Source: Acidimicrobiaceae bacterium
GTDB taxonomy: Bacteria > Actinomycetota > Acidimicrobiia > Acidimicrobiales > Ilumatobacteraceae
DNA: 41,076 nt
Assembly: GCA_947467375.1 (NCBI GenBank)
Contig: CANIHL010000010.1
Coordinates: forward strand, 1 to 41,076
Direction: 5' to 3'
The position numbers were made by a program, and so were the translations under genes. Shown here in pieces: positions 37,229 to 41,076 of this stretch. The notes under the pieces were generated by a model that was given only the letters and a program-made list of their open reading frames with translations, was not told where the DNA came from and made no database searches. Positions within the stretch are counted from its first letter, which is position 1. Each line of letters starts with the position of its first letter.

Positions 37229-38686
37229 TTAGTTACGCCAAGTAACACCAGTTGGCCATTCGCCAACTCCACCGTCTTCCATGAGCATGCCAGTGAGGTC
37301 ACGATTGGTGTGACGCGAACGCCACACCAACATGTCCTGCGCCATGGTGAGCACTCGTGACGGATCGGTAAACGTGGTGCGCCACGTTGGGTCAGTAGCA
37401 AGATCAAATGCCAACCATGTTCCATCACCGAATTGCACATATGCCTTGTCGTCGTAACGTCGAACTGCGAGGTTCTGTTTTTCTAGTCGTTGATCCCACG
37501 GCCAATTCCGTTCGCCCATGCGAATGAAATAGTGACGCCAGTCGTATTCATACGATGCTGCATCTCGCCATTGGGGAAGCGGTTCACCACGCAAAAACGG
37601 AGTGAGCGGCAAACCATCGCATTGCTTCGGCACGGGTTGACCGAGTGCTTCTGCAATGGTTGGCACGATGTCAACATTTTCAGTGAACTCTGTGACTTCG
37701 GTTCCGTGCTGTGAAGAATGCTGAGGGTCACGGACGATTCCAAGAATGTGGTAGCTCTGATCGAAGAATCCAAGTTTCTCTTTTAGACCATGATCGCCTA
37801 ATTGCTCGCCGTGATCTGCAGTCACAATGATGACGGTGTTTTCCCACATGCCAAGTTCGACCAAGGTGTCCCACACTCGACCAAGTTGTTCATCAACATC
37901 GCCGATCATGCCGTAGTACTGCGCGATCATGTGCCGAACTTCTGACTCATCAGTCGGTGCTGCCGCGCCTGGAATTTGCAAAGCGAAATCGTGAAATGGA
38001 TGACGTTCATCTGATGGGCTAATTGGCATTGGCACATCTGCTGGGTCGTATGCACTTGACCATTTTCCTGCAGCGGAATATGGCGGGTGCGGGCGAAGGT
38101 AACTGGCGTGTGCAAACCACGAACCGTTTTGTTCGCGTAACCATGCAAGAAAGTGATCGGTCAGAAACGCCGACATTCCGAACTCCGCAGGACGCGATGG
38201 TTCGCCGAGTAACGCTTGCTGCGCATTCATCGGAACATCGAAGCCATTGGCGCGCAGGTGTTCGATCCACAATGTGTGAGGTTCGGGAAGAAAGAGCTTG
38301 CAGTCAAAACCTGGAAGCACTTCTTCATACGTGTTCAATCGAGAATCGTTTGAGTCTGCGACATCTCGGGGGTCGATTGCTTGGTCGGTATAACCAAATA
38401 GAACAGGTTCGTATCCGGCGCGTTGCGCAAGCAGCGCAACATTGTCAAATCGTCCATCGAGTGGTGTGCCGTTGGCAACGACGCGGTGATTCATTTGATA
38501 CATGCCCGTGTACAAACTGGCGCGCCCAGGGCTGCATGGAGCACATTGGCTGTAGTGCTTGGTGAGGCGCACGCCCTGTTGCGCGAGCCGATCAAGATTT
38601 GGCGTTCGAACGAGTGGATGACCCGCAATGGATAAACAATCTGCACGGAATTGATCCAAAGTTATGAGCAGGACATTCGGCTTCAT
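37229..38686 (-). CDS. Phosphonate monoester hydrolase-like sulfatase family protein
   Basis: The 485-residue alkaline-phosphatase-superfamily enzyme carries the formylglycine motif CSPGR at 51-55, with metal ligands Asp11 (LITLDQFRAD) and Asp291-His292 (TADHGEQLGDHG). Flanks such as CAPCSPGRASLYTGMYQMNHR and SYLRPHPPYSA resemble the phosphonate monoester hydrolase/promiscuous arylsulfatase group more than the arylsulfatase at 18856. Such enzymes hydrolyse phosphonate and phosphate mono- or diesters and sulfate esters. Conversion of Cys51 to formylglycine is assumed; no maturase is in the window. No signal peptide is present. It is divergent from the alpha/beta hydrolase gene. Confidence 0.85.
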   Translation of the reverse strand: MKPNVLLITLDQFRADCLSIAGHPLVRTPNLDRLAQQGVRLTKHYSQCAPCSPGRASLYTGMYQMNHRVVANGTPLDGRFDNVALLAQRAGYEPVLFGYTDQAIDPRDVADSNDSRLNTYEEVLPGFDCKLFLPEPHTLWIEHLRANGFDVPMNAQQALLGEPSRPAEFGMSAFLTDHFLAWLREQNGSWFAHASYLRPHPPYSAAGKWSSAYDPADVPMPISPSDERHPFHDFALQIPGAAAPTDESEVRHMIAQYYGMIGDVDEQLGRVWDTLVELGMWENTVIIVTADHGEQLGDHGLKEKLGFFDQSYHILGIVRDPQHSSQHGTEVTEFTENVDIVPTIAEALGQPVPKQCDGLPLTPFLRGEPLPQWRDAASYEYDWRHYFIRMGERNWPWDQRLEKQNLAVRRYDDKAYVQFGDGTWLAFDLATDPTWRTTFTDPSRVLTMAQDMLVWRSRHTNRDLTGMLMEDGGVGEWPTGVTWRN

Positions 38687-38712
38687 TGAGTGTGAAGCGT
38701 AGTGTGATTGTT

Positions 38713-39597
38713 ATGAATTCTGCTGAGCGCACCACCGTGATGGTTGATGCTGGCACGGGAGTTGCGCTGCGTACGGTGCGCTGGGGAAATCCCGCAGACT
38801 CGGTGTTTGCTCCGTTGGTGCTCATTCATGGGTTGGCTTCAAACGCAATGTTGTGGGAGGGAGCGGCCCTTGAGTTAGCTGCCCTTGGTCATGCAGTCGT
38901 GGCGGTTGATTTGCGCGGGCACGGTTTGAGCGAAAAACCCGACGATGGATACGACATGGTGTCGGTGACAAACGATGTTGTTGGCGTCTTGCACAAACTT
39001 GCCGCAGATGGTTACGAGCGACCTGTCGTCATCGGTCAATCGTGGGGTGGCAACGTGGTAGTTGAGCTTGCACATGTGCACCCCGAACTTGTTCGCGGGG
39101 TAGTCGCTGTTGACGGCGGGTTCTTAGAACTGCAAACACATTTTCCACAATGGGAAGAGTGTTCAGTTGCTCTTCGTCCACCAAATTTATTGGGCACTCC
39201 TGTTTCACGGATGCGCGGATATATGGAAGGTGCGCACCCTGATTGGCCAAAGACAGGCATCGACGGCTCGATGGCCAATTTCGAACACCTGCCTGATGGA
39301 ACTATTCGACCATGGCTTACCTTGGAGCGCCATCTGATGGTGTTGCGTGGATTATGGGAACACAAGCCGACACATATATATAAAGACGTATCCGTGCCGG
39401 TGATGTTTGTTCCCGCAGAAGGCCCGGGCGGTGTGTTTTCAGAAACAAAACGCCACGCCGTTGAGCACGCATTGCACAATGTGCCAACAGTTCGGGTTGA
39501 ATGGTTCAGTCCCGCAGATCACGACTTGCATGCACAACACCCTGTGCGTTTTGCGAAAGTTGTGCATACAGCAACAACAGATGGGTTCTTTTCATGA
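38713..39597 (+). CDS. Alpha/beta hydrolase
   Basis: The ~294-residue cytoplasmic hydrolase, from the ATG at 38713, has the oxyanion region LIHGLASNAMLW (37-48), VDLRGHGLSEKP (65-76), the nucleophile elbow GQSWGGN with Ser110, and a C-terminal histidine in SPADHDLHAQHP (His270 or His273). This is the classic esterase/epoxide hydrolase/lactonase fold; no substrate is evident. Its stop overlaps the start of the next gene (ATGA), so both are translated together. A TTG at 38686 would add nine residues and overlap the divergent gene's start. Confidence 0.85.
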   Translation: MNSAERTTVMVDAGTGVALRTVRWGNPADSVFAPLVLIHGLASNAMLWEGAALELAALGHAVVAVDLRGHGLSEKPDDGYDMVSVTNDVVGVLHKLAADGYERPVVIGQSWGGNVVVELAHVHPELVRGVVAVDGGFLELQTHFPQWEECSVALRPPNLLGTPVSRMRGYMEGAHPDWPKTGIDGSMANFEHLPDGTIRPWLTLERHLMVLRGLWEHKPTHIYKDVSVPVMFVPAEGPGGVFSETKRHAVEHALHNVPTVRVEWFSPADHDLHAQHPVRFAKVVHTATTDGFFS

Positions 39598-40850
39598 CGC
39601 TTCCACGCATTTTGGTCATTATGGGTTCTGGCGAAACTGCGCCAACCATGGTGCCAACCCATCGTCTTATTTCACGCATGTTGCCAAGCCCTGCGCGTGC
39701 AACACTGCTTGACACGCCGTACGGGTTTCAAGAAAATGCACCTGAACTCGCTTCAAAAGCAGTGGAGTATTTCAACACCAGTATCAATATGAAATTGGAT
39801 GTTGCTGGGTTGACGCAATTGATAGACGCAGATGCGCTGACAGTTGAGCGCGGTTTGCAATTGGTAGCAGATGCTCATTATGTATTTGCGGGCCCTGGTT
39901 CGCCAACGTATGCATTGCGCCAATGGAGCGGAAGTCCACTCGCTGGTTTGCTGGTGAAGAAGCTGCGCGACGGTGGAGTAGTCACGTTTGCGTCTGCTGC
40001 TGCACTGACGCTTGGCAGATTCACGGTTCCCGTGTACGAAATTTATAAAGCCGGAGCTAACCCGTATTGGCTAGAGGGTTTGAATATTCTCGGCGAAATT
40101 GGCGTTAATGCTGTTGTTATTCCGCATTACAACAATGCTGAAGGTGGGCATCACGACACTCGTTTTTGTTACATGGGCGAACGTCGCCTTTCAGTAATGG
40201 AAACCGAGCTTCCCGATGACGTTTACGTGTTGGGTGTAGACGAACACACAGGTCTGATGCTTGACCTCGATGCAAACACTGCAACCGTGGTTGGCAAGGG
40301 TGTGGTGAGCCTGCGCTTGCGTGGAACTACCGCTGAAATTGCAAGCGGTGAAGTGTTCTCTATTGATCGCTTGCGTAACCCATGGTCGGATGTAGTTGCG
40401 TCAATAGCCGCCGCAACTCCTTCTTCAGCACCAGCGGTAGTTGAAACGGTAGATAGCAATTTGCGTCATGCAACCGATCGACTCAATAATGCATTTGCTG
40501 CTGCGCTTAATGAAGGAAATGCAGATGCTGCAGCGCGTGCTGCGCTGGAGTTAGATGATGCAATTGCGGGTTGGTCTGCAGACACGTTGCAAAGCACTGA
40601 CGCAGAATATGCGCGCAGCGTATTGCGCAGCATGGTGACACGTCTGGCAGGTGCGGCGACTGGTGGGTTACGTGACCCGCGCGAAGTCGTTGGGCCGTTC
40701 GTGCAAATTCTGCTTGATCTTCGTGCGCAGGTGCGCTCTGACAAACGCTTCGATTTGTCCGACTTGATTCGCGATCGATTCGCTGACATCAACGTTGAAG
40801 TGCGTGACACCCCGCAGGGCGTTGAATGGGGCTTCCGCCAAGAGAGTTAA
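39594..40850 (+). CDS. Peptidase S51/glutamine-amidotransferase-like protein with a cysteinyl-tRNA-synthetase-like C-terminus
   Basis: The 418-residue protein starts at the ATG at 39594, which overlaps the stop of the hydrolase gene. Residues 1-230 look like the S51/class I amidotransferase-like fold: VIMGSGETAPTM near the start, LLDTPYGFQENA, VFAGPGSPTYALRQW and the turn FASAAALTLG, where S51 peptidases have a GxSAGA nucleophile. The canonical glycines around that serine are missing, so activity is uncertain. The last ~45 residues (LDLRAQVRSDKRFDLSDLIRD and on, with VRDTPQGVEW) closely resemble the C-terminal domain of cysteinyl-tRNA synthetase, and residues ~290-335 look like the preceding helical part. 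No HIGH or KMSKS motif is present, so it is not a synthetase. Function unknown. Confidence 0.75.
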   Translation: MTLPRILVIMGSGETAPTMVPTHRLISRMLPSPARATLLDTPYGFQENAPELASKAVEYFNTSINMKLDVAGLTQLIDADALTVERGLQLVADAHYVFAGPGSPTYALRQWSGSPLAGLLVKKLRDGGVVTFASAAALTLGRFTVPVYEIYKAGANPYWLEGLNILGEIGVNAVVIPHYNNAEGGHHDTRFCYMGERRLSVMETELPDDVYVLGVDEHTGLMLDLDANTATVVGKGVVSLRLRGTTAEIASGEVFSIDRLRNPWSDVVASIAAATPSSAPAVVETVDSNLRHATDRLNNAFAAALNEGNADAAARAALELDDAIAGWSADTLQSTDAEYARSVLRSMVTRLAGAATGGLRDPREVVGPFVQILLDLRAQVRSDKRFDLSDLIRDRFADINVEVRDTPQGVEWGFRQES

Positions 40851-40928: not shown

Positions 40929-41076
40929 ATGAGGAAAATCGCTCAAACCCGTCAGGTTGAAGTTGGAATTCGCGACTTGAAGAGCCAATTCAGTAAGTAC
41001 ATCGATCGTGTCCAAAAGGGAGACGAAATCATCGTGACAGAACACGGAAAACCGGTTGCGCGCATTAGCCCAGTCA
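40929..41076 (+). CDS. Phd/YefM-type antitoxin, N-terminal part (cut by window edge)
   Basis: The ATG at 40929 opens a frame that runs off the window after 49 codons. The segment RQVEVGIRDLKSQFSKYIDR followed by VQKGDEIIVTEHGKPVARISPV is the Phd/YefM-type antitoxin core, a DNA-binding dimer that represses its own operon and neutralises a partner toxin. The toxin, often a VapC/PIN-type or RelE-type protein, would lie just downstream, outside the window. A TACAAT box at 40917-40922 is a possible -10 element, leaving a very short leader. It follows the S51-like gene by 78 bases and seems to begin a separate unit. Confidence 0.85.
   Translation, partial: MRKIAQTRQVEVGIRDLKSQFSKYIDRVQKGDEIIVTEHGKPVARISPV

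Follow-up and report, generated by a model that had tools for sequence, protein, structure and literature searches.

A widespread, unannotated bacterial protein family that joins an S51-like hydrolase domain to a cysteinyl-tRNA synthetase-type anticodon-binding domain

The GCA anticodon is a major identity element of tRNA-Cys (PMC9976931), and in E. coli cysteinyl-tRNA synthetase (CysRS) the residues R423, R427, W432 and D436 contact the anticodon base G34, according to an analysis of structure 1u0b (PMC12684709). ThrRS-ed consists of an editing domain and an anticodon-binding domain, and has no synthetase domain (PMC9976931; PMC8762117). Among enzymes of the peptidase S51 type, MccG uses a Ser-His-Asp triad to cleave the aminoacyl-nucleotide carboxamide of processed microcin C (PMC9239234). 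Here we describe an unannotated, widespread bacterial family in which a peptidase-like enzyme is joined to the anticodon-reading piece of CysRS. The fusion resembles the known free-standing proteins that combine a hydrolase with a synthetase-derived anticodon-binding domain, and it possibly has a role in cysteine-tRNA biology. Cysteine is usually held to need no editing, because CysRS discriminates well. A hydrolase dedicated to reading the anticodon of tRNA-Cys, found in several phyla and in genomes of about 1 Mb, would, if our reading is true, mean that either a quality-control step or a use of Cys-tRNA has been overlooked.

The family member studied here is encoded in a window (the whole stretch of DNA that was analysed) of 41,076 nucleotides. 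Its gene lies on the forward strand at 39594..40850, with an ATG at 39594, backed by relatives that align from residue 1, and a stop codon at 40848-40850. AF2 modelling of the 418-residue product with the family alignment gave a pLDDT of 91.8 and predicts a domain at residues 1-266, disorder at 276-285, three helices, two more helices and a beta hairpin. Directly upstream on the same strand lies an alpha/beta-hydrolase gene (38686..39597, counted from a TTG at 38686; PF12697, E 4.2e-21), and its stop codon overlaps the start of the fusion gene in the tetranucleotide ATGA (39594..39597). This overlap recurs in distant loci and bears out the translational coupling of the two genes that the preliminary description had proposed. 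Divergent from the alpha/beta-hydrolase gene, positions 37229-38686 of the reverse strand encode a sulfatase-family hydrolase near PehA (NF045661, 402 bits against a cut-off of 900). Downstream on the forward strand, from 40929 to the end of the window at 41076 and running off it, we recognized by eye the first part of a small antitoxin-like protein of the Phd/YefM type (MRKIAQTRQVEVGIRDLKSQFSKYIDRVQKGDEIIVTEHGKPVARISPV).

Taken alone, the fusion protein matches PF23493 (CysS_C) at sub-threshold E-values of 0.006 for the C-terminal fragment and 0.042 for the whole protein; since it stays under curated cut-offs, relatives were required to judge homology. A profile of 52 members with pairwise identities below 75% matched CysRS entries of the PDB through its C-terminal part, with E-values of 2.2e-12, 3.2e-11, 6.6e-11, 7.4e-11 and further values ranging to 1.2e-5. 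Pfam CysS_C was matched by 47 of the 52 non-redundant members (best E 8.5e-13). When the C-domains of the family were compared with those of CysRS from the same class, hhalign returned 98.9% across 122 columns, helical bundle included; the control, the fusion N-domain against the same CysRS C-domains, returned 0.1%. These statistics rule out chance similarity. The relationship also holds in the reverse direction, as the family profile matches genes the size of CysRS in further genomes of the phylum with E-values of about 1e-17, and the CysRS model matches the C-termini of the fusion family. Earlier reading of the DNA had described a fusion of an S51-like with a CysRS-type C-terminal domain, and profile searches, hhalign and the predicted fold agree with it; the CysRS-like peptides that it had noticed are located at residues 385 and 403, within a similarity that extends over about 120 residues.

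The C-terminal half begins with a linker (residues 276-289, 40419..40460, forward strand), of which residues 276-285 are predicted to be disordered with pLDDT below 50. It is followed by a helical bundle at residues ~290-361 (40461..40676; helices 290-306, 310-328 and 335-357), which by hhalign corresponds to the helical, DALR-type region of CysRS and aligns with it from E. coli residue 336 onward, and by a CysRS-type anticodon-binding domain (CysS_C) at residues ~362-415 (40677..40838), assigned by profile, structure and hhalign. Compared with E. coli CysRS (1u0b/1li5), the fusion protein is thus homologous over about 122 columns that comprise the C-terminal bundle and the anticodon-binding domain, whereas the Rossmann catalytic domain is missing. 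HIGH-like and KMSKS-like motifs are absent from its sequence, as had been noted before. It is not a broken or split CysRS either: a normal CysRS coexists in 40 of 40 genomes of the class examined, the source genome has its own of 456 residues, and its relatives share the fusion throughout. A tree built from C-domains placed CysRS and the fusion family in two separate groups with none misplaced (support 0.965), a clean split that fits a single old fusion. Outside the reader residues the C-domain diverges more than the N-domain, and the bundle is shortened in some relatives; members of 355-357 residues from genomes of ~1 Mb still keep the anticodon reader.

The reader residues themselves span 40722..40829 on the forward strand. 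In the alignment, R377, R381, F386, D390, R393, D405 and W412 of the fusion protein correspond to R423, R427, W432, D436, R439, D451 and W458 of E. coli CysRS. Residues R377, R381, D390, R393, D405 and W412 are identical in 52 of 52 members and position 386 invariably holds an aromatic residue (F, Y or W), and the family retains all of the G34-contact positions (R423, R427, the aromatic W432 and D436). Streptomyces and Nonomuraea members that are ~40% identical show this pattern as well. M346, D349 and T352, which are conserved in CysRS, are not retained. As these positions were lost while the reader residues stayed, retention is selective for the anticodon reader. This is the strongest sequence-derived sign of tRNA-Cys binding that we obtained, and the fusion protein probably binds tRNA-Cys. 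That the protein may sense tRNA or a compound linked to cysteine, or act on one of them, had been suggested previously, and this idea gains strength from the retention of every G34-contact residue.

Structure prediction is consistent with this assignment. The C-terminal part of the full model matched 1u0b, in which CysRS is bound to tRNA-Cys, with Z 7.9 and an rmsd of 16.6, which means that the sub-domains differ in orientation. Modelled alone, the C-domain reached a pLDDT of 94.4, and Foldseek returned CysRS 1u0b as the sole outstanding match (E 5e-3, probability 0.99; next match E 1.0), so the predicted fold of the C-domain is CysRS-like. With VIA-align, generic helical bundles dominated (Z ~10) and CysRS 3sp1 scored Z 8.1. 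As generic bundles outscore CysRS, comparison of the bundle fold is not decisive by itself, and the claim is carried by the sequence evidence.

The N-terminal half (residues 1-266, 39594..40391, forward strand) has a predicted S51 fold, in line with the S51- or amidotransferase-like N-terminus originally proposed. VIA-align placed it next to the cyanophycinase-like peptidase 6nqc (Z 25.0, 233 residues aligned, 2.7 A), cyanophycinase 7uqw (Z 23.5) and PepE 6a4r (Z 20.2), and the family profile matched 6nqc through its N-terminal part with an E-value of 1.4e-7. The fusion protein itself gave no match to Pfam PF03575 (Peptidase_S51); 15 of the 52 members did so at E<=0.01 (best 8.1e-6). The putative nucleophile is Ser134 in F-A-S-A-A-A (39993..39995), which is invariant in the 52 members, aligns with SAG of 6nqc and, by DSSP of the model, lies between strand 128-133 and helix 134-137. 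His178 of PHYNN (40125..40127), the putative catalytic histidine, is likewise invariant, follows strand 173-177 and aligns with PHFN of 6nqc. Both sit at strand ends, as in S51. Asp216-Glu217 of GVDEHT (40239..40244) aligns with GIDEVTA of 6nqc and is the candidate catalytic acid. D216 is present in 52 of 52 members and E217 in 44; the remaining eight (L046, L052, L056-L058, L063, L065 and L075, most from Chloroflexota) have S or G in its place, so that their putative triad lacks its acid or has it at a shifted position. The GXSAG nucleophile motif of S51 was not found in any of the 52 members, all of which read xSAA, and we therefore call the protein S51-like rather than an S51 member.

Conservation is higher in the N-domain than in the C-domain. 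It includes the motifs GSGE, GFQxN, GPGSPxYA, SAA, PxYExYKxG, PHxxNxEGxxxDTxxC and GxD, and the invariant or near-invariant polar residues S12, E14, H23, R24, D40, Q46, N48, Y148, E149, K152, N181, E183, D188, C192 and R198. Compared with PepE, CphB, 6nqc and MccG, the family is thus alike in fold (Z 20-25), in the positions of Ser and His and in strand order, but differs in having xSAA for GXSAG, the extra motifs GFQxN and EG..HDTR.CY.G, a variable acid position, a PF03575 score under the cut-off and a fused C-domain.

A scan of bacterial and archaeal genomes yielded 183 relatives, from which 79 loci were kept. Within the class, about 68 of 198 genomes carry a strong match (rows with E <1e-30); 296 genomes of the phylum provided further carriers outside Acidimicrobiia, plasmid-collection records added members from Nonomuraea and Streptomyces, and one family of genomes of ~1 Mb contributes 33 carriers. 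The architecture is constant across Acidimicrobiia, other Actinomycetota, Chloroflexota and Rokubacteria (Candidatus Rokuibacteriota). Annotated records of the family read 'hypothetical protein'. In the literature that we searched, nothing joined cysteinyl-tRNA synthetase with peptidase S51 and nothing relevant was found on the domain or the fusion, so the combination looks unreported.

MshC (mycothiol ligase), a paralogue of CysRS, is another CysRS-derived protein, and the source genome has a truncated CysRS-like gene of MshC size (388 residues). This MshC-like gene keeps the catalytic part, its match ending at position 367 of the CysRS model, whereas the fusion keeps only the part that the MshC-like gene is without. 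No MshC-like match was among the matches listed by the CysRS search for the fusion-carrying ~1-Mb genomes, and we rejected a link to mycothiol. A special tRNA-Cys as partner was also rejected, as one ordinary tRNA-Cys (GCA) is found among the best 30 of 44 tRNA matches in the source genome.

In Acidimicrobiia, Chloroflexota and Rokubacteria, most loci have the alpha/beta-hydrolase gene directly upstream of the fusion gene, mostly with the 4-nt overlap, and S119, D143 and H279 of its product are invariant in 28 sequences. In several further lineages, among them the carriers with ~1-Mb genomes and the Streptomyces plasmids, it was not found beside the fusion gene. Several families of Acidimicrobiia have the order CtaA - ClpS - DUF2017 - Gfo/Idh - Gfo/Idh - alpha/beta hydrolase - fusion gene, and in other Acidimicrobiia the fusion gene directly follows ClpS-DUF2017. 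Loci of the Ilumatobacteraceae type have a convergent zinc ABC transporter.

Together, sequence comparison and structure prediction show a two-domain anatomy, kept reader residues, a conserved Ser/His pair and a conserved gene pair. They are compatible with a model, which we favour tentatively and by analogy with ThrRS-ed, in which the fusion protein is a tRNA-Cys-binding hydrolase that acts in trans on the aminoacyl group of tRNA-Cys. The CysRS-derived module would bind the GCA anticodon loop with the residues that CysRS uses, and the Ser-His-acid site of the S51 fold would hydrolyse an acyl group on the bound tRNA-Cys. That the protein acts on the aminoacyl end, and on which acyl group, we infer; it may be a wrong, D-, N-blocked or chemically damaged residue that is removed in trans, or the tRNA may be discharged in another way. 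The co-translated alpha/beta hydrolase would probably belong to the same pathway. More broadly, it is about an even call whether the family is a previously unrecognised class of tRNA-Cys-dependent enzymes, S51-fold serine hydrolases led by a CysRS-derived anticodon reader that proofread or repair tRNA-Cys in trans, or spend Cys-tRNA in a pathway with the coupled alpha/beta hydrolase. Because domain boundaries, the candidate Ser134 and the likely tRNA-contact residues are defined, the idea is directly testable with one purified protein and one tRNA.

Like the fusion, ThrRS-ed has a hydrolytic domain and an anticodon-binding domain derived from a synthetase and is without the synthetase domain. 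However, the hydrolase fold of the fusion is unrelated to that of ThrRS-ed and of the free-standing trans-editing proteins AlaX, ProXp and DTD, the system would be that of cysteine and not threonine, and trans-editing is here only a proposal. Several points count against it. We know of no need for editing by bacterial CysRS, and S51 enzymes, as far as we know, cleave amide bonds and not tRNA esters. The imperfect conservation of the E217 acid (44 of 52) and the xSAA sequence in place of GXSAG count in the same direction. In a tRNA complex the anticodon lies ~75 A from the acceptor end, a long distance to be bridged by the linker and the bundle, which some members have in shortened form; this is a real difficulty for the reading. 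Absence of the family from many genomes of the class means that it is not a universal proofreader. Nor is it a substitute for D-aminoacyl-tRNA deacylase: of 13 carriers, 4 lack the gene for that enzyme, as do 5 of 27 non-carriers, so that it shows no mutual exclusion with the family.

The main rivals to hydrolysis in trans are the use of Cys-tRNA as a donor and a peptidase controlled by tRNA. As a donor enzyme, the protein would take the cysteinyl group from Cys-tRNA-Cys onto Ser134 and transfer it to a peptide or a small molecule. The alpha/beta hydrolase, in some lineages together with two Gfo/Idh/MocA oxidoreductases, would work on the same compound. The operon with small-molecule enzymes (the alpha/beta hydrolase in most loci, a Gfo/Idh/MocA pair upstream in about ten) speaks for this, and the very many invariant or near-invariant polar residues of the N-domain suggest a specific, complex ligand. 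Yet no biosynthetic cluster is common to the phyla, carriers with genomes of ~1 Mb do without the operon and the fold relatives are hydrolases, and we consider a donor role unlikely. A regulated peptidase is unlikely, too. Here the C-domain would detect tRNA-Cys, for instance in its uncharged form when cysteine is short, and would switch a peptidase of the S51 type whose action on peptides or thiols frees cysteine or other amino acids. S51 enzymes are dipeptidases and the reader domain is intact, but the pocket motifs are unlike those of PepE and cyanophycinase (no GXSAG, and an added EG-HDTR-C-Y-G segment), and to our knowledge no regulator of this design exists.

Other readings give the C-domain a lesser part. 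It could have been repurposed to bind a protein instead of tRNA, in which case the enzyme would be a common peptidase or amidohydrolase to which a structural tail is attached; its greater divergence outside the reader residues would fit, and CysS_C is also named in a non-synthetase protein, YqeB. Such repurposing does not predict, however, that the positions of R423, R427, D436, R439 and D451 are invariant while others that are conserved in CysRS drift, and we hold it to be distinctly unlikely. The enzyme might instead detoxify CysRS-aimed inhibitors (aminoacyl-nucleotide Trojan-horse antibiotics), and the CysRS piece would then be an accessory. Such a role is known for the S51 enzyme MccG, which acts on processed microcin C (PMC9239234), and members of the family occur on Streptomyces plasmids. 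On the other hand, it is not evident why a small-molecule hydrolase should need an anticodon reader, and the fact that streamlined ~1-Mb genomes keep the family suggests a routine role. PADLOC gave no match, which counts against detoxification and led us to discard anti-phage defence as well. We regard detoxification as very improbable. Breakdown of a cyanophycin-type storage polymer, with the fused domain irrelevant, has the cyanophycinase fold match (Z 23) in its favour, but the TIGR02069 score is 15 bits against a cut-off of 126.6, and none of 40 genomes from the class has a cyanophycin synthetase (TIGR02068) above the curated cut-off; we reject a cyanophycinase identity and give such a function hardly any credence.

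Some of the neighbouring genes deserve mention. The N-degron adaptor ClpS is encoded upstream of the fusion gene, in some cases directly, in 12 of 82 loci (L047, L048, L049, L062, L093, L094, L098, L156-L159 and L166), which belong to several Acidimicrobiia families. DUF2017 usually accompanies it, and a link between a tRNA-reading hydrolase and this adaptor is conceivable. In three loci (L049:2369-4126, L062:2435-4090 and L048:2348-4063) the Gfo/Idh/MocA oxidoreductase of the same operon has ~200 extra N-terminal residues, which match no Pfam family, and is followed by a shorter Gfo/Idh gene. The members on linear Streptomyces plasmids (L219 and L220) have genes for DUF4331, TPR, 'nickel transporter' and class F sortase proteins nearby and no alpha/beta hydrolase. 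Metal transport genes adjoin the fusion gene in two unrelated lineages (L012:7288-9930 and L148:8752-10712, both on the reverse strand), as ZnuABC or as ABC/CbiQ with a Fur-family regulator.
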